From the NCBI RefSeq assembly GCF_018139625.1, contig NZ_JAGSOH010000048.1, positions 1-49,701 of the forward strand: a stretch of 49,701 bases of DNA. Direction: 5' to 3'. The stretch is from Actinospica acidithermotolerans (GTDB lineage: Bacteria > Actinomycetota > Actinomycetes > Streptomycetales > Catenulisporaceae). Below the pieces are notes generated by a model, which worked only from the letters and a program-made list of their open reading frames with translations, was not told the origin of the DNA and searched no databases. Made by a program: the position numbers and the translations under genes. Positions 20,534 to 49,455 of this stretch are shown in pieces (positions within the stretch are counted from its first letter, which is position 1; each line of letters opens with the position of its first letter).

Positions 20534-20930
20534 GCGATCGGCCGCCTTCCTGCAATCCGGCCGCGGTTGTCGCCTCTGCAGGGGCGGCAGAGGAACGGGT
20601 GCGATCGGCCGCCTTCCCGTGATCCGGTCATGGCTGTCACGTCTGCCGCGGCAGATGGGGACGGATGCGATCGGCCGTCTTCCTGCAATCCGGCCGCGGT
20701 TGCCGCCTCTGCCGCGGCAGATGGGGACGGATGCGATCGGCCGCCTTCCCGTGATCCGGCCGCGGTTGTCGCCTCTGCCGCGGCAGATGGGGACGGATGC
20801 GATCGGCCGCCTTCCCGTGATCCGGCCGCGGTTGTCGCCTCTGCCGCGGTAGTCGGGAACGGGTGCGACGGAACGCCTTCCCGTGATCCGGTCATGGCTG
20901 GCACCTCTGCTGCGGCGGCCGGGGAACGGA
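20534..20930. repeat. Array of six 66-bp tandem repeats
   Basis: Units begin GCGATCGG or GCGACGG at 20534 (67 bp), 20601, 20667, 20733, 20799 and 20865 (66 bp each). Units 3-5 are nearly identical and the outer ones diverge. Each contains GCCTCTGCCGCGGCAGA, itself partly palindromic. Since 66 is a multiple of 3, open frames run through the array on both strands without stops. No spacer variation, so it is a minisatellite and not a CRISPR. Confidence 0.9.
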
Positions 20931-20956
20931 TGACGTGCGGCGTCCGTCCAAGCGGC

Positions 20957-21208
20957 ATGACCGCATTGCGCGCTGCCCTTCTCGCGGCGGCGTTCCTCCT
21001 CGCGCTGGCCGCTCCGGTGATCTACTTCGTCCACGTTCGCGAGTCGATCCCCGGGATGCACTGCATGGCGTACGGGCCGAACGGCCCGGTCTGCCCGGCC
21101 GCGAGATACGTGCGTCACACCGGGCTCGCGACGGGCGCGGCGCTGCTCGCCCTCCTGCTCGTCGGCGGCGCCGCGTTCCTGCCGCGGCGCCGCCGGAACC
21201 GCGGCTGA
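20957..21208 (+). CDS. Small two-TM membrane protein
   Basis: The predicted 83-aa protein has two hydrophobic helices ([20 protein letters not shown] and [16 protein letters not shown]). A short loop between them holds two cysteines ([13 protein letters not shown]), and the tail is RRRRNRG. The frame is open upstream through the 66-bp repeats, so a longer 213-aa product with 22-residue repeats is formally possible. The ATG at 20957 starts the part with protein-like composition. No family recognised. Confidence 0.55.
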
Positions 21209-43803: not shown

Positions 43804-43881
43804 TCGTCCGAGAGCGCTGGGAAGCGCTTCGGAAGCGCAACGGTGCTTTTCCGGGAACGGCCGCGCTGGTCGCATGAACCC

Positions 43882-44613
43882 ATGACGACACCTGTGCACG
43901 GTTCCTCTTCGCTAGAACCGCCGCAAGGCCGAGCCGGGGCGGTGGGGATCCCGGCTCGGCCACCCGGACGCAAGGCCGTGGGCATCTTCCTGGCGCCCGC
44001 GACCGGACGGGCGGCGGCGTTGGCCATCGCCGGGATCCCGCTGGCCGTATTCCTCGTCGCCGGCTTCGCGGCCGACGCCGCGGCCAATTCGGGCGGCGAC
44101 GGCGGACAGTCCCAGTCGCCGTACGGGCTCTCGCCGACCGTCGGGCAGTCGTATCCGGAATCTTCCGCGTCGTACCCGACCGACAGCACGGACTCGGGCC
44201 TCGTGGAGTCGACGGACTCGGCCTCCGACCACGGGTCCGCCACGGACTTCGCATCCGCGGTCTCCACAGACACCGGCAGTTCGACGGCGACGGGCACCGC
44301 GACCGCGTCGCCCTCGGCTACCGCGACCGGCCCGGCCGCCGTGGTCCTCGCCGCATACGCCGACATCAACAACCACGACTACGAAGGCGCCTACGCCCTC
44401 GGCCTGGACCTGAACGGCGAGTCGTACCAGGACTTCGCCAACGGCTACAGCACAACCCAGTCCGACACCATCACGATCACCGGCGTCAGCGGCGACGTCG
44501 TGGGCGTCTCACTGCTCGCGATCTCCACCGACGGCACCCAGAGCACGTACTCAGGCACATACACCGTGACCGGCGGAAAAATCACCGGCGCCGATCTCCA
44601 GCAGGTGAGCTGA
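43882..44613 (+). CDS. Membrane-anchored protein with NTF2-like C-terminal domain
   Basis: The 243-aa protein has a short cytoplasmic N-terminus, one TM helix (ALAIAGIPLAVFLVAGFAA) and a Ser/Thr/Asp-rich linker of about 90 residues. A C-terminal domain of about 90 residues follows (VVLAAYADINNHDYEGAYAL, then SGTYTVTGGKITGADLQQV), which resembles the NTF2/SnoaL-like fold seen in exported actinobacterial proteins. ATG 43882 is the likely start. Only 1 bp separates its stop from the next ATG, so it is the first gene of a three-gene operon with the 540-aa protein and the TIR-like protein. Confidence 0.75.
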   Translation: MTTPVHGSSSLEPPQGRAGAVGIPARPPGRKAVGIFLAPATGRAAALAIAGIPLAVFLVAGFAADAAANSGGDGGQSQSPYGLSPTVGQSYPESSASYPTDSTDSGLVESTDSASDHGSATDFASAVSTDTGSSTATGTATASPSATATGPAAVVLAAYADINNHDYEGAYALGLDLNGESYQDFANGYSTTQSDTITITGVSGDVVGVSLLAISTDGTQSTYSGTYTVTGGKITGADLQQVS

Positions 44614-44614
44614 G

Positions 44615-46237
44615 ATGACCGATACGCGCATCCCCGGATACGAATCCGACTCCTCGCTGCCGAACCCGGCGGGGATGGCACGCGTCCCGCGCCCCTACGC
44701 CCACAGCAACGCGACGCGGCTGCTGAGCGCGGGCGCGTACCTGGAGAAAGACTTCCGCACGGGGGTGATACGGGAGCTGGTCAGGGACTTCTACCGGGTC
44801 GTCGCCCCCTCGTACGGCTATGACGCGGTGACCGTCCTCGCGCACGCGCTGGCCGCGCGCAGCCTGCGCCGCAAGCAGCTCGCCGGGGTCTTCCTCGGCG
44901 AGCTGCTCACACTGATTCTGGCGAGCAAGGGCCTGCTGCCCGGCGTCAGCGCCGTGCTGATCGCGCTCTGGCTGCCGTGGGCGTTCTCGTTCCTGCGCCG
45001 AGTCGCCACGATGCAGGCGCTGATCACGTGGCTGAGCCCGCGGCCGTCGCCGAGCACCTCAGGGGCGGCCGACTACGAGTACGACTTCCCGGCCGACCGC
45101 GCGCTGACCCCCGAGCTCGTCGAGAAGATCGCGCTGCAGCAGGCGGGCGGACAGCAGGAGATCATGTTCGCGCGCGAGCGCTTCCGGCCCTTCGTCGGCG
45201 CCGGCTGGGACAAGGACGACTGGACCGCCGCCGCGCTGCTGCTGCCGATGAAGACCGACCCTACGCTGCGCGCCTATCTCAGGGACGAGGAGGACGAGGA
45301 AGAGGAGATCGAGCAGCCGCCGGTGATCCCGTTCACCGTGGAGGAGATCTCCGAATACGTCGCGCAGCGGCTCGAATCGGAGCTGCGCGACGACGCGCCC
45401 TACGGCGAGCAGATCGAGAACCTGGTCGTCGAGCGGCGCCGGTACAGCCGCGCGGGCTCGCTGCCGGCGAAGAAGCGGCTGTTCTGGCGCTGGCGGGGCG
45501 TGCTCCTGCTGCCGCCGTCCACGGTCGGCGAGATCGGGTCCTTCCGGCCCTTCGAGGACCGCGAGCAGTACGACGCCGCGCGCGAGTACCTGTGCATCCG
45601 GGTCGGCGCCTGGGACCAGGAGGTCGTGAACTCGATCTTCGTCGGCTTCGACGTGCGCGGGAACACGCTCTACAGCGAGTTCTACCCGCACGTGATGCCG
45701 CCGGTGCAGGCGAGCTTCCACCTCGTCGACCGGCTCCCGCAGCGGCTCGGCGTCAAACTGCTGCTGCGCATCGCGATCGACATCCCGCTGAGCCTGCCGC
45801 GCCAGATCTACAACACCTTCTGGGCCGCGCTGCGCGCGGCCTGGGCCCAGATCCGGCGCCTGGGCCGGGCGGCGATCGGCTTCGTCGGCGTGATCGACGG
45901 CAGCGACCTGCGCCTCGGCCGGTACGCGGTCGATCTGGTGGACACCGGCGCGAAGGTGAGCCTGCGCGAGCTGGCGGCCTCGCCGGACTACCACCACTTC
46001 TTCCAGAAGGCCGACCACACGAAGTACGTGCAGATCGTGCAGCGCCGCCTGCTCGAAGTGATGCGCGACTTCCTGATCGAGCACAACATCGACGTGTTCG
46101 ACCACGACCAGCGCGGCACCACGATCCTGGACAAGTCGACGCGCAACTACGGCGACGCGATCATCCACGGCAACGGCGTCATCAACCAGGGCGGCCGCGG
46201 CAACCGGCAGTCCTTCGGCCGCGGGCGGGGGGCGTGA
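44615..46237 (+). CDS. Uncharacterised 540-aa membrane protein ending in a motif shared with the TIR-like protein
   Basis: No known family is recognised. A TM hairpin lies at about 88-128 (GVFLGELLTLILAS and VSAVLIALWLPWAFSFL). An acidic run DEEDEEEEIEQ (about 224-234) and a large soluble region with a second hydrophobic, possibly membrane-associated segment (VKLLLRIAIDIPLSLPR) follow. The final residues 513-534 match residues 7-28 of the next protein without gaps: G[DN]AxIxGxG[VI]INQGG, three variable residues, then RQ[ST]F. Overlap-like spacing on both sides (1 bp and 6 bp) shows an operon. A sensor or scaffold that recruits the TIR-like partner is inferred. Confidence 0.8.
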   Translation: MTDTRIPGYESDSSLPNPAGMARVPRPYAHSNATRLLSAGAYLEKDFRTGVIRELVRDFYRVVAPSYGYDAVTVLAHALAARSLRRKQLAGVFLGELLTLILASKGLLPGVSAVLIALWLPWAFSFLRRVATMQALITWLSPRPSPSTSGAADYEYDFPADRALTPELVEKIALQQAGGQQEIMFARERFRPFVGAGWDKDDWTAAALLLPMKTDPTLRAYLRDEEDEEEEIEQPPVIPFTVEEISEYVAQRLESELRDDAPYGEQIENLVVERRRYSRAGSLPAKKRLFWRWRGVLLLPPSTVGEIGSFRPFEDREQYDAAREYLCIRVGAWDQEVVNSIFVGFDVRGNTLYSEFYPHVMPPVQASFHLVDRLPQRLGVKLLLRIAIDIPLSLPRQIYNTFWAALRAAWAQIRRLGRAAIGFVGVIDGSDLRLGRYAVDLVDTGAKVSLRELAASPDYHHFFQKADHTKYVQIVQRRLLEVMRDFLIEHNIDVFDHDQRGTTILDKSTRNYGDAIIHGNGVINQGGRGNRQSFGRGRGA

Positions 46238-46243
46238 CCGACG

Positions 46244-46972
46244 ATGGCCAAGAACACCTTCGGCAACGCCTCCATCGGCGGCGACGGCATCATCAACCAG
46301 GGCGGCGCGAACGTGCGCCAGACCTTCAACCAGGCCGAGAGCCCCGAGACGGCCGCCGCTGAGCATGCGAGGCGGCTTTCGCTGCTGGAGGAGGCGAGGC
46401 GCGAGCAGGCGGACGTGGACCGCAGCATCTTCGTGGTCTACGGCCGGGACACCGCCGTCAACAACGCCGTCTTCCAGCTGCTGCGCAATCTCGACCTCAA
46501 GCCGCTGGAGTGGGAGAAACTGGTGCGCGGCAGCCGGGACGGGCGCATGACGCCGATCCTGGGCGACGTCGTCATCAACGCTCCACGGCTGGCCGCCGCG
46601 GCCGTCGTGATCCTCACACCCGAGGACGCGGTCATGCTGCACCCGGAACTGCGTAAGCCGCGCGAAGACGCCTTCGAACTGCATCCGACGCTGCAGCCGC
46701 GGCCGAACGTGCTGGTGGAGCTCGGGATCGTGCTCGGGGTCTATCCCGAGCGCACGCTGATCCTCGAGTTCGGCGAGCTGCGGCCGATCGCCGACCTGGG
46801 CGGGTTCAACTCGGTCCGCTTCCAGCAGTCGACGAATCTCGTCGACGCTCTGCGGAAGGTCGCGGGGCGGCTGCAGCAGGCCGGGCTGCCGGTCGACGAC
46901 GCGGGCTCGGCCTGGCTCGATCCGAAGCCGTTCCAGAACCTCAAGGCCTATCGCCGCAAGCCGGTCGTCTGA
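46244..46972 (+). CDS. TIR-like nucleotide-binding effector with N-terminal INQGG motif
   Basis: The 242-aa protein has the shared Gly/Asn/Gln motif at residues 7-28, a helical linker (36-58) and a TIR-like domain of the PF10137 (CAP12-like) type at about 61-200. That domain shows SIFVVYGRD, AVVILTPEDAV, RPNVLVELG with the putative catalytic Glu159, then LILEFGELRPIADLGGF. Domains of this type cleave NAD+ or make ADP-ribose derivatives in phage-defence systems. It is the last gene of the three-gene operon. The following minus-strand gene encodes a ThsA-type macro-domain protein, the expected reader of a TIR product. Confidence 0.85.
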   Translation: MAKNTFGNASIGGDGIINQGGANVRQTFNQAESPETAAAEHARRLSLLEEARREQADVDRSIFVVYGRDTAVNNAVFQLLRNLDLKPLEWEKLVRGSRDGRMTPILGDVVINAPRLAAAAVVILTPEDAVMLHPELRKPREDAFELHPTLQPRPNVLVELGIVLGVYPERTLILEFGELRPIADLGGFNSVRFQQSTNLVDALRKVAGRLQQAGLPVDDAGSAWLDPKPFQNLKAYRRKPVV

Positions 46973-46984
46973 CCGGGCGGCGGG

Positions 46985-47041
46985 GCAGTCCCTCGGGGCT
47001 GCGGGCGACCTCAGCGGTCGGCCGCCGCCCCGAGGGACTGC
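46985..47041. terminator. Long-loop inverted repeat between TIR-like and macro-domain genes
   Basis: Perfect 15-bp arms GCAGTCCCTCGGGGC (46985-46999) and complement (47027-47041) flank 27 nt. The right arm lies inside the 3' coding end of the macro-domain gene. It probably works as a shared terminator for the two convergent genes. Confidence 0.65.
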
Positions 47042-47901
47042 AGGAAGTCGGCGATGCTCGGCAGGTCGATCCGGTTCAGGTCCTCGGGCCGGATCAGCAC
47101 CCGCAGCTCCCGGCAGACCCGCCGCTCCCGCGAGCGCACCACGAAGGACAGCAGGATCAGCCGGAGGATGTCCTGCGCCTCCAGATAGTCGAGCCGGGCC
47201 AGCCCCGCCCCCAGCAGCGGGATGGCGAGCGCGTCCTGGTGCCCGCGCCGGTCGACGGCGTCCCACAGCCGGTTCAGCCCGAGCCAGAGGTCCTCGACGC
47301 TCGACCGCGCCACGCCGTCGCCGCCCACCGCGCTGTACGCCACCGCGAACACCCGCCGCGGTCCGTCGTCGAGGACCGCGACCGTGCCGATCGGATAGCG
47401 CACCGTACCGCCCGCACGCCTACGGTTGCGGCGAGCGGAACCCGCCGGCCGCGACCCGCGCAGCGCCGACGTCACCGCGGCACTCAGCTTCGCCGCGTCG
47501 CCCCCGTAGACGCGAGCGAGAAGCTGCCCCTGCACGGACGCCGGGCTGATCGGCCCGTGCGGCCATACGTCCGTGGAGAAGGTGTCGGAGAAGCCGACCG
47601 CCAGATGCTCCGGCCGGTCGAAGAGGTCGCCCGGCTCCACCACCACCGTCATCCCCGGGTACCTGAACTCGCGCCGCACGTGCGTACGCGGCCGCGCCCG
47701 TATCGCGGCGTATGCGAGGCACGGTCCGATAGCGGCCAGCGTCCACCGCCCCGGATCGGCGAAGGCCGCCGGCACCGCCGGCCCCACGAACTGGACCGCC
47801 GCCGAGACCGCGCCGAACGCGCCGAGCAGAGTCCCGCAGAAGAGCCGCAGCGCGCGGCGGCCCTGCCCCGGTTGCCGCAGAACACTGAGAAGCGGTGACA
47901 T
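47011..47901 (-). CDS. Two-TM protein with ThsA-type macro domain (type II Thoeris ThsA-like)
   Basis: The 296-aa protein has two N-terminal hydrophobic helices (about 17-44 and 51-68). A macro-like domain runs from about 80 to the C-terminus: EPGDLFDRPEHLAVGFSDTF, SVQGQLLARVYGGD, RYPIGTVAVL, AVAYSAVGGDGVARSS, IPLLGAGLARL and LIRPEDLNRID. Two TM helices plus a macro domain is the architecture of type II Thoeris ThsA, a membrane effector triggered by an ADP-ribose-type signal made by a TIR protein. It is convergent with the TIR-like gene and divergent from the SARP-macro gene. Confidence 0.83.
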   Translation of the reverse strand: MSPLLSVLRQPGQGRRALRLFCGTLLGAFGAVSAAVQFVGPAVPAAFADPGRWTLAAIGPCLAYAAIRARPRTHVRREFRYPGMTVVVEPGDLFDRPEHLAVGFSDTFSTDVWPHGPISPASVQGQLLARVYGGDAAKLSAAVTSALRGSRPAGSARRNRRRAGGTVRYPIGTVAVLDDGPRRVFAVAYSAVGGDGVARSSVEDLWLGLNRLWDAVDRRGHQDALAIPLLGAGLARLDYLEAQDILRLILLSFVVRSRERRVCRELRVLIRPEDLNRIDLPSIADFLQSLGAAADR

Positions 47902-47938
47902 CTAGGTCTCATCTCGTCTTTCGGCCTGCCGGCCGACG

Positions 47939-47952
47939 GGTAATCAGTTACC
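47939..47952. promoter_or_regulatory. GGTAA-N4-TTACC inverted repeat in the divergent promoter region
   Basis: Five-base arms around TCAG lie roughly midway in the 113-bp region between the macro-domain gene (start 47901) and the SARP-macro gene (start 48015). It is a candidate binding site of the SARP-macro regulator for both promoters. Confidence 0.45.
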
Positions 47953-47968
47953 GTGCCCTTGGTGGATC

Positions 47969-47992
47969 GCCGCGGAAGGAGAGGTCCGCGGC
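47969..47992 (+). promoter_or_regulatory. Leader hairpin upstream of the SARP-macro gene
   Basis: GCCGCGGA and TCCGCGGC are perfect 8-bp arms around the loop AGGAGAGG. The loop looks like a Shine-Dalgarno sequence but is 30 bases from the ATG; the used one is GGAGAGGG at 48001-48008. Operator or RNA leader element are both possible. Confidence 0.5.
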
Positions 47993-48014
47993 ACGTGGTG
48001 GGAGAGGGTTCGAC

Positions 48015-49352
48015 ATGACGCGCATCCGCGTGAGCGTGTTGGGGCCCGTGCAGGTCGAGGTGGACGGGAGCGTCGCGAAGCTCTCGCCCCGGGCACTGCG
48101 CGTCTTGATGCGGCTGGTGGCCGCGGGAGGACGCCCGGTGGGAGTGAAGCAGCTGCGCTGGGATCTGTGGCGCGAAGTGGATCGGCCGCACGAGTCGCGA
48201 AACGGGCGCAACCAGGTGCAGAAGGGCATCTCCGAGCTGCGCGGGATCTTCGATCCGGCCCGCTCCGGAGCCGCCGACGACGTATTGCGGACCGAGGAGC
48301 TCTACAGCGGACCGGAACGGGAGAGCGCCTACCGGCTGGTGCTCGGCCCCGACAGCCTGGACGCGGCGGAGTTCGGCGCCCTCGTCGCCGACGCCATGCA
48401 CGGCGCCGTAGCCGCGTCCGCCGACCGGCTGACCCGGGCGGTAGCGCTGTGGCGCGGCAGGCCGCTCGCCCAAGCCGGCGACGAGGCGTACGCCGAGAAC
48501 CTGGTGCGGATATGGCGCGAGCAATACGCGACCGCCCTGCGCGAACTCGTCCGCATCCACGGCGAGTTCGGCCGCTATGACCTCGCATTGCCCTTCGCTC
48601 GAAGGCTGGCAGAGGAGTTCCCCGACGACGCCGAGGCCGCCGCGGCCCTGACCGGGGTTCACGAACGCCTGCGCGCCCGGCACGGCGACGAACTGCTCCG
48701 CCGCGCCTTCCCGGAGCTGCGGACCGAGGTGGCGCTGGTCCGGGGCGACCTGTTCGCCCAGAAGGACGCGAGCCTGGTCATCGGCTTCACAGACACCTTC
48801 GACGTGGAGACCAAGGAAAGCAGGGTCATCAGCCGGGAAAGCGTGCAAGGCCAGCTCGTAGACCGCCTGTACGGCGGCGACACGACCGCACTGGACCGCG
48901 AGCTGCGCCGCGGCCTACGAGCGGTCCCCGCGCTGGGCATGGAGTCCCGAAGCGCCAAGCCGCGCGGCAAACTCCTGCGATACCCCGTAGGCACGGTCAT
49001 CCCCGTACCCCTGGACGGCCGCCTGATATATGCCGCCGCGTACTCCAGGCTAGACAACGATCTGGTGGCGAGATCGAGCCGCGACGACCTGGCGGCCACC
49101 CTGGACCGGGTCTGGGAGAGCGCCGCGCGATACGGCCGCATGCTCCCGATCGCAGTCCCCCTGCTCGGCTCAGGCCTGGCCCGCATCACCGAGCTCCGCC
49201 AGGAGCAGCTGCTGGGCATGATCGTCGAGTCCTTCCTGCGCGGCTGCCGCCGACACGACACGGTCGCCCCGCAGCTCCGCATCGTCCTGCGCCCCGAGGA
49301 CCTCGAGCGCGTGGACCCCGTCCGCGTCGCGAAGGAGGTCTTCGCCCTCTAG
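48015..49352 (+). CDS. SARP-type transcriptional regulator fused to a ThsA-type macro domain
   Basis: The 445-aa protein starts with an OmpR-like winged-helix DNA-binding domain (about 3-95: RVSVLGPVQVEVDG, SPRALRVLMRLVAAGG). A bacterial transcriptional activation (BTAD) helical domain follows (about 110-230: VALWRGRPLAQAGDEAYAEN, YDLALPFARRLAEEFP). The macro domain (about 236-445) is homologous to that of the divergent gene: RGDLF, SVQGQLVDRLYGGD, RYPVGTVI, AAYSRLDNDLVARSS, VPLLGSGLARI and LRPEDLERVD. SARPs normally end in an NB-ARC/TPR part; here it is replaced by a predicted ADP-ribose-type ligand sensor. ATG 48015 has GGAGAGGG six bases upstream. Confidence 0.85.
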   Translation: MTRIRVSVLGPVQVEVDGSVAKLSPRALRVLMRLVAAGGRPVGVKQLRWDLWREVDRPHESRNGRNQVQKGISELRGIFDPARSGAADDVLRTEELYSGPERESAYRLVLGPDSLDAAEFGALVADAMHGAVAASADRLTRAVALWRGRPLAQAGDEAYAENLVRIWREQYATALRELVRIHGEFGRYDLALPFARRLAEEFPDDAEAAAALTGVHERLRARHGDELLRRAFPELRTEVALVRGDLFAQKDASLVIGFTDTFDVETKESRVISRESVQGQLVDRLYGGDTTALDRELRRGLRAVPALGMESRSAKPRGKLLRYPVGTVIPVPLDGRLIYAAAYSRLDNDLVARSSRDDLAATLDRVWESAARYGRMLPIAVPLLGSGLARITELRQEQLLGMIVESFLRGCRRHDTVAPQLRIVLRPEDLERVDPVRVAKEVFAL

Positions 49353-49455
49353 CGCACCACCCGCCCCGCTTCCGCCGCTAGCGCCGCCGCGCTTCCGGCC
49401 CGCTTCCGATGCGGGGGAGCGGTCGGTACGGCCCGCGAGGCTGCGCGCCCGAAGA

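Follow-up and report, generated by a model that had tools for sequence, protein, structure and literature searches.

The window analysed here is a stretch of 49,701 nucleotides, contig NZ_JAGSOH010000048.1 of Actinospica acidithermotolerans, and the gene in question lies near its right end. It encodes a regulator, called SARP-macro in the following, in which a SARP (a winged helix followed by a BTAD) is joined to a macro domain of the ThsA type. The gene stands in a group together with a small protein (p256), a predicted membrane protein (p540), a TIR protein and a second macro protein with predicted transmembrane segments (2TM-macro), and candidate operators lie at both ends of this group. 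In detail, the locus holds the following features:

43819-43875, plus strand: candidate left operator and promoter, facing p256-p540-TIR
43882-44613, plus strand: p256, first gene of the operon, a small protein with a hydrophobic N-terminal segment
44615-46237, plus strand: p540, predicted membrane protein for which Pfam gives no family, candidate sensor or transducer
46145-46234, plus strand: amyloid-signalling-like motif in the last 30 residues of p540, of low confidence in a poor model
46244-46972, plus strand: TIR protein of the CAP12/PycTIR type (PF10137, E=7.4e-21), predicted signal-making NADase
46277-46327, plus strand: amyloid-signalling-like motif at the N-terminus of the TIR protein, GGDGIINQGGANVRQTF, which matches the motif at the C-terminus of its partner p540
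within 46244-46972, plus strand: candidate catalytic Glu159 of the TIR protein, in NVLVELG
47011-47901, minus strand: 2TM-macro, ThsA-like, divergent from SARP-macro, predicted membrane effector (PF20016, E=1.3e-54)
47902-48014, plus strand: region between 2TM-macro and SARP-macro with the probable promoter of the latter, GTTACCGTG at 47947-47955, placed by eye and tentative
48015-49352, plus strand: SARP-macro regulator, ATG start, 445 amino acids (Pfam, PADLOC, AlphaFold2 with Foldseek)
about residues 1-112 of SARP-macro: winged helix (AlphaFold2 model)
residues 115-211 of SARP-macro: BTAD (Pfam)
48732-49292, plus strand (residues 240-426): ThsA-type macro domain of SARP-macro (PF20016), predicted nucleotide sensor
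49351-49408, minus strand: candidate right operator and promoter, facing leftward, on the antisense strand of SARP-macro and the sense strand of 2TM-macro

The initial annotation of this gene had proposed a SARP fused to a ThsA-type macro domain, and profile searches and a structural model confirm this architecture. Residues 240-426 match the Pfam family ThsA_Macro (PF20016, E=1.2e-48, 165.8 bits at a cut-off of 25) and the protein is also recognized by the PADLOC model for ThsA (PDLC00415, E=1.3e-56). The BTAD (PF03704) exceeds its cut-off with 33.1 versus 22.1 bits (E=8.6e-8). Trans_reg_C reaches 14.4 of the 26.2 bits required in Pfam, therefore the winged helix lies below the threshold by sequence. 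The AlphaFold2 model, based on an alignment of 24 sequences, has a mean predicted local distance difference test value (pLDDT) of 85 and a predicted TM score (pTM) of 0.56. By these values each half is modelled well, but in view of the low pTM their mutual placement is not. The first eight matches of this model in a Foldseek search of the PDB are ThsA macro domains (target TM 0.79-0.85, E values down to 2.2e-12), including 8v6q and 8v6r from E. coli, 8v6s (PcThsA) and 8r66, which according to its title is a complex with the signalling molecule, so that the predicted macro fold is present in the model. The SARP half resembles EmbR (2ff4 and 2fez, target TM 0.48-0.49) and AfsR (8hvr and 8k60, 0.65-0.66), which together with the Pfam match of the BTAD gives the domain order of a SARP.

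SARP-macro and the neighbouring 2TM-macro match with 37% over 256 residues (E=1e-36), and the conserved blocks listed in the initial annotation (GDLF, SVQGQL, YGGD, RYP[IV]GTV, ARSS, PLLG[AS]GLAR, RPEDL) are indeed common to both. 2TM-macro itself matches the PADLOC ThsA model with E=1.9e-73; in a hydropathy plot segment 18-36 passes a simple threshold and the second expected segment does not. A recent copying of the macro domain from 2TM-macro was considered and rejected, as the two types fall into separate clades of a FastTree phylogeny: 27 SARP-macro tips form one clade (support 0.76), which includes L064 and L066, and nine paired 2TM-macro tips form another one (support 0.979).

The fusion is not restricted to A. 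acidithermotolerans. In a survey of 245 genomes of the same order ThsA_Macro is present in 31, and 23 of the 30 loci for which flanks were fetched contain full-length SARP-macro homologues with 44-55% identity to the protein of the window. Wider draws gave nine positives in 394 genomes of the class and three in 296 of the phylum, one of the latter under the family cut-off; these positives include the window's own genome and others already counted. An alignment-based scan of named genome contigs found 123 relatives, of which 80 were kept, and both halves are matched in 79 of them, L148 containing the macro part only. A contig scan with the protein sequence of the window alone gave 108 pattern stretches, none of which was confirmed. 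The order set of 30 loci and the named set of 79 have genomes in common. As 23/30 order loci and 79/80 named loci carry the fusion, it does not arise by chance. The 79 full-length relatives come from 13 named genera of actinomycetes, namely Streptomyces, Kitasatospora, Actinacidiphila, Actinospica (with A. durhamensis as L096), Catenulispora, Parafrankia, Actinomadura, Acrocarpospora, Herbidospora, Nonomuraea, Micromonospora, Actinoplanes and Virgisporangium. Searches of plasmids and phages matched 14 plasmid records and one phage record, none covering 80% of the SARP-macro query, and since all 15 best places match the SARP half or the macro part alone there is no sign of the fusion in these records. 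At two loci the SARP-macro match is spread over two frames (L126:9004-10364 and L132:8998-10361).

The neighbourhood is conserved as well. The named loci were typed with profile models built from the 30-locus set, and partners were sought within the fetched flanks. A gene for a TIR protein of the CAP12/PycTIR type was found near 70 of the 79 SARP-macro genes, therefore a nucleotide derived from this TIR protein is a natural candidate for the ligand of SARP-macro. The common form is that of the window, p256 - p540 - TIR - 2TM-macro (reverse) - SARP-macro, with all five genes in 49/79 loci. Smaller groups have p256, p540 and TIR without 2TM-macro (three loci), p540, TIR and 2TM-macro (L102 and L137), p540 and TIR (L139 and L143, both Actinoplanes) or TIR and 2TM-macro (L115, on a short contig). 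In 13 of the 79 loci SARP-macro occurs with CATRA and TIR, in nine of these also with CHAT. Four of the nine loci without TIR are cut by a contig end near the gene (L072, L078, L099, L089); L127 and L141 have CHAT neighbours, L127 in addition a CATRA-associated small protein, and L134 has 2TM-macro and CHAT. In the order set 22/23 SARP-macro loci have the TIR gene, which at L061 is about 5 kb away, and the one miss (L041) is at a contig end. This set contains five loci with 2TM-macro and without SARP-macro, and in both that were checked (L044 and L052) a TIR_2 protein adjoins.

Several observations on the partner genes can be added. CATRA-N, CATRA-C and the CAP12/PycTIR TIR domain are found by Pfam in one chain at L059, L060 and L108, with CHAT at L059, L060 and L061; SARP-macro near these CATRA-TIR fusions (L059:7099-8856, L060:9987-11774, L108:10427-12202) looks like a further module type that uses this regulator. 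No CATRA, CHAT or transposase family was detected by Pfam among the six window proteins scanned. At L057/L105 (Streptomyces capoamus) the TIR frame looks split and 2TM-macro and the right operator are absent, which could be a decaying module or a sequencing error. Matches to p540 of at least 185 bits occur in 20/245 order genomes (42-48% identity, the own genome aside), all of them within the 24 SARP-macro genomes, and weaker ones (at most 105 bits) in 125 further genomes. A wider p540-like family is thus visible in 145/245 order genomes, mostly as frames of 550-870 amino acids, often two to four per genome and outside the SARP-macro module. Two p540 proteins were scanned and gave no Pfam family, and the p540 model is poor (pLDDT 54).

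The TIR protein fits the CAP12/PycTIR profile and carries the motif NVxxExG, which is present in all 71 TIR domains compared; its Glu we take to be the catalytic residue. A sequence search against the PDB gave weak matches only (best E=0.042). Short Gly/Asn/Gln-rich motifs are common to the last approximately 40 residues of p540 and the first approximately 45 of the TIR protein, and these motifs vary between clades and agree within each locus. The pairing was scored over 19 loci, i.e., 20 without L057, where the start of the TIR protein is out of frame. Mean scores were 99 for cognate, 47 for non-cognate and 35 for residue-shuffled combinations, and none of 20,000 shuffled pairings reached the cognate mean. 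After clustering at 60%, all eight p540 representatives ranked their own TIR protein first, and the true pairing was the only one among 40,320 permutations that attained its mean. Bacterial amyloid signalling sequences (BASS) have been found by a motif that is repeated in adjacent genes, as described in passages of PMC9815663 (see also PMC12261475), and the p540/TIR pair shows just such a motif, at the C-terminus of one product and the N-terminus of its neighbour. We therefore regard the p540 tail and the N-terminus of the TIR protein as putative, partner-matched amyloid-signalling-like motifs. A CHAT protein at L141:8172-8870, divergent from SARP-macro, starts with a Gly/Asn/Asp-rich segment (GDNINGDKVGG) that resembles them.

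For the macro pocket, positions were mapped on EcThsA with the numbering of PMC11204291 and 78 SARP-macro domains were compared. All 78 domains have the equivalents of D83, D100, G218 and R221, and 75 of them that of S175; the protein of the window retains the equivalents of D83, S175, S217 and G218. The paired 2TM-macro proteins agree with SARP-macro at most of the compared positions, with Gln114, Arg259 and G218 each in 19/19, and Arg259 and G218 each occur in one of five unpaired 2TM-macro proteins. Within a locus, residues 217-221 show no one-to-one joint variation between the two macro proteins, and for this reason we claim no covariation of the pockets. Passages of PMC11204291 name ADP-ribose (ADPR), IAD and His-ADPR as ligands of ThsA macro domains and describe their oligomerization upon ligand binding. 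Both macro proteins of the module may share a ligand, possibly a different one from that of EcThsA. Another combination of such a sensor with an effector-associated domain is found at L054:982-2751, where ThsA_Macro and an N-terminal EAD1 are in one chain.

The known SARPs bind close to the -10 element, at direct repeats with a spacing of 11 or 22 bp, as stated in passages of PMC10972967 and PMC10936776. Repeats of this kind, heptamers with an 11-bp period ahead of -10-like elements, appear to be conserved with the SARP-macro family: CGGAAGC repeats are followed by TNNNNT, facing inward at both ends of the module. The right operator of the window has no mismatch (repeat pair 49391-49408, third repeat 49368-49374), and its -10-like element TGCGCT (49351-49356) overlaps the stop codon of SARP-macro; the coding start of 2TM-macro lies about 1.4 kb to the left, past the entire SARP-macro gene. 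On the left, a repeat pair (43819-43836) and a third repeat (43852-43858) precede the -10-like TCGCAT at 43870-43875, which ends six bases short of the ATG at 43882. As this conserved element ends at 43875, the ATG is preferred over the GTG at 43843 as start of p256, and the transcript is probably leaderless. Where the flanks of p540-type named loci were long enough for comparison, 50/50 have the left box and 51/53 the right box, the misses being L105, which also lacks 2TM-macro, and L146. TNNNNT stands 11 bp past the third repeat, read inward, at 38/38 scorable left and 54/55 right sites, and in all eight cluster representatives on each side (one to two expected by chance). Outward-facing promoters were considered and rejected, as TNNNNT read outward from the box edge occurs at most twice at any offset. 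In total, 121 sites were found in the 80 loci, of which 53 face 2TM-macro (right end), 54 p256 or p540, two CATRA and one CHAT; for the remaining 11 no gene was recognised within 2.5 kb. In several CATRA-type loci GCTTCCG heptamers with an 11-bp period are found upstream of SARP-macro. Nineteen loci, mostly of the CATRA/CHAT type, lack both p540 and a reverse 2TM-macro; in seven of these the pair is located immediately upstream of SARP-macro, pointing away from it and towards its neighbour.

The region immediately upstream of SARP-macro (47902-48014), which the initial annotation had proposed as the DNA target of the regulator, has turned out differently. Even when one mismatch is allowed it contains no repeat pair, and a k-mer inspection for an operator revealed a promoter-like element instead. 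An extended -10 (TGnTAnnCT) facing SARP-macro recurs in many of 55 named loci in the same interval, and the element GTTACCGTG listed above is its tentative counterpart in the window. A GAACC.../CTCCA patch upstream of this extended -10 is conserved as well.

Taken together, we interpret the locus as a TIR signalling module that is complete in itself and includes a transcription factor of its own, and we assign a probability of roughly 0.6 to this interpretation. The membrane pair p256/p540 would sense an insult, and p540 would hand the signal to the TIR protein by a templated contact of the matching amyloid-like motifs, as the motif pairing suggests. The TIR enzyme, judged by its family and the conserved Glu, would convert NAD+ to an ADP-ribose nucleotide. 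According to family and pocket, this nucleotide would bind to the membrane effector 2TM-macro, as in type II Thoeris, as well as to SARP-macro. Liganded SARP-macro would then act as an activator and presumably bind the direct-repeat operators at both ends, which are conserved as sites. The left promoter would raise the expression of p256, p540 and TIR and thereby form a positive feedback loop, and the right promoter would produce an antisense transcript that runs over SARP-macro into 2TM-macro, so that the effector is armed and the regulator limited. A ligand-driven oligomerization of the macro domain is a plausible switch: as the SARP domain of AfsR is a monomer in solution and dimerizes on DNA (in passages of PMC10936776), ligand-driven macro contacts could favour binding to paired repeats. 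In its complete form, the proposal is an immune relay at one locus, from prion-like templating of the TIR protein over a messenger that is read by a membrane effector and a transcription factor to two inward promoters, with what would be the first described transcription factor switched by a TIR nucleotide as far as the literature was searched. We put forward this extended version tentatively and hold it to be possible rather than probable.

Some observations weigh against this interpretation. The activation of SARP-macro by its ligand is assumed. The left operator of the window is weak, with one mismatch in the pair, two in the third repeat and a 22-bp step, and the third repeat could not be scored in 15/53 left boxes, which all belong to a single clade (19 loci). 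The distance between the last repeat and the -10-like element is 11 bp instead of 8. L087 and L058 keep the right box despite the absence of 2TM-macro, and L105 has lost it. Eight of the 19 loci of the other types have no repeat pair at the threshold and four have it elsewhere (L108, L114, L117, L144), and at L126 and L144 SARP-macro has no recognised partner at all. In the pocket of the window's SARP-macro several contacts are changed (N114 to Gln, T220 to Ala, H259 to Arg and K262 to Asp), and the family also differs from EcThsA, with Gln at N114 in 78/78, Ala or Ser at T220, Arg at H259 in 63/78 and mostly Asp or Glu at K262. Gln114 is found in 5/5 unpaired 2TM-macro and 6/7 other macro proteins too, therefore it is no mark of the module but common to a wider group. 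In the 2TM-macro of the window Ser replaces the equivalent of D100, a residue needed for the stability of EcThsA, since its Ala mutant is insoluble (according to a passage of PMC11204291). Finally, over all 19 loci only 11 p540 proteins rank their own TIR protein first; close relatives can stand in for each other.

The strongest alternative, still an unlikely one, is that SARP-macro is a repressor or silencer which holds both ends off, perhaps by bridging them, and is released by the ligand. The inverted placement of the operators at both module ends would suit such a protein, and at L138, L139 and L143 no more than about 30 bp separate the end of the repeats from the SARP-macro match; the ligand-induced oligomerization of ThsA macro domains (PMC11204291, in the passages cited above) speaks for it as well. 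On the other hand, SARPs are described as activators in passages of PMC10936776, and the repeats lie at a fixed distance upstream of the -10-like element, near the position where SARP activators bind.

A coupling of immune signalling to secondary metabolism or to other distant genes, as the initial annotation had suggested, we consider improbable. Biosynthetic gene clusters are the usual targets of SARPs in the account given in passages of PMC10972967; the exact repeat pair GCTTCCGNNNNGCTTCCG, however, occurs at a single place in the 7.9-Mb genome, 49391-49408 (reversed control: none). The three-repeat operator likewise has one mismatch-free place in this genome, at the same locus (control: none), and with three mismatches two places elsewhere. 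With up to one mismatch allowed, the number of pairs is at background, 11 versus 13 for the reversed control, although both ends of the module are among the 11. The exact pair is found in 107/245 order genomes at least once and is thus not rare by itself; in 20 of the 24 SARP-macro genomes it lies at the SARP-macro locus (not in G003, G013, G021 and G158). As the operators are at the ends of the own module and no other exact copy exists in the genome, a role in secondary metabolism is unsupported. Of the suggested link between a TIR-derived nucleotide and genes under SARP control, the first half therefore stands as a candidate, with TIR near 70/79 relatives and a mostly retained pocket, and the extension to secondary metabolism does not.

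Slightly less probable still is that the macro half removes the signal as an enzyme or sponge and that the SARP half merely couples this removal to DNA. Other macro families hydrolyse ADP-ribose bonds (a passage of PMC11204291), but the nearest relatives here are the macro domains of ThsA, which are nucleotide-binding sensors in Thoeris, and several pocket positions are invariant. Least of all do we expect the repeats to be terminal inverted repeats of a mobile element: they are inverted with one set per end and the sequence outside is unconserved by eye, but a -10-like element at a fixed inward offset at each end, the same repeats just upstream of SARP-macro in seven of the 19 other-type loci and the lack of a transposase family among the scanned window proteins speak against it.

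The self-amplifying TIR module proposed here resembles type II (TM-macro) Thoeris in the ThsA_Macro family, the 2TM-macro partner, the adjoining TIR gene and several positions of the ADPR pocket. In contrast to Thoeris, the TIR protein matches PF10137 and the PDC-S35 and Effector models of PADLOC and not ThsB, is of the CAP12/PycTIR type and carries an amyloid-like motif; furthermore, the second macro protein is a SARP regulator, and p256, p540 and own operators are added. The TIR_2 neighbour of 2TM-macro at L044 and L052, which have no SARP-macro, is what one would expect of an ordinary Thoeris system. With SARPs like AfsR, EmbR, RedD and ActII-ORF4 the regulator has the fold of winged helix and BTAD in common, and heptamer repeats near a -10-like element accompany its family. 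Passages of the review PMC10972967 divide SARPs into small, medium, large and SARP-LAL proteins; instead of the NB-ARC, NB-ARC-TPR, LAL or absent sensor given there, or the FHA domain of EmbR, SARP-macro has a macro sensor, and it is part of a TIR module. The likeness to CATRA/CHAT systems (CATRA is credited to Burroughs and Aravind 2020 in a passage of PMC8195603) consists in SARP-macro beside CATRA-TIR at L059 and L060 and in the 13 named loci that combine it with CATRA and TIR, whereas the module proteins of the window match neither CATRA nor CHAT. BASS of the PP/RHIM-like kind also show matching Gly/Asn/Gln-rich motifs at the C- and N-terminus of adjacent products; in the module the partners are a membrane protein and a TIR protein and not an NLR and a Bell effector, and the likeness seen here is one of motif pairing.

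Fusions of a sensor for immune nucleotides or ADP-ribose to a DNA-binding domain are represented by CARF, WYL and Nudix-HTH regulators, and passages of PMC9503650 place Nudix- and WYL-HTH regulators in ADP-ribose conflict systems (for conflict systems see also parts of the eLife papers PMC7159879 and PMC8195603). SARP-macro differs from these by its ThsA-type macro sensor and its SARP as DNA-binding part. In agreement with the initial annotation, which knew of no described regulator that joins a SARP and a macro domain, none was found in the open-licence PMC literature as judged by titles and the starts of abstracts; an earlier mention (Burroughs and Aravind 2020) is possible. Elsewhere in the window, an open reading frame at 20567-21208 starts with GDGCDRPPS-like peptide repeats and is probably no real gene.

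The module joins amyloid-like signalling, a TIR enzyme and ThsA macro sensors in one conserved unit of actinomycetes, and SARP-macro extends the list of SARP sensors given in passages of PMC10972967 by one type. The TIR nucleotide signals known so far are switches of killing effectors; in SARP-macro, a sensor of the same kind is predicted to sit on a transcription activator. As this fusion of sensor and activator comes with candidate operators, the reprogramming of bacterial transcription by a TIR messenger is directly testable, and, if true, it would be a prokaryotic counterpart of TIR signalling with transcription as its end point.

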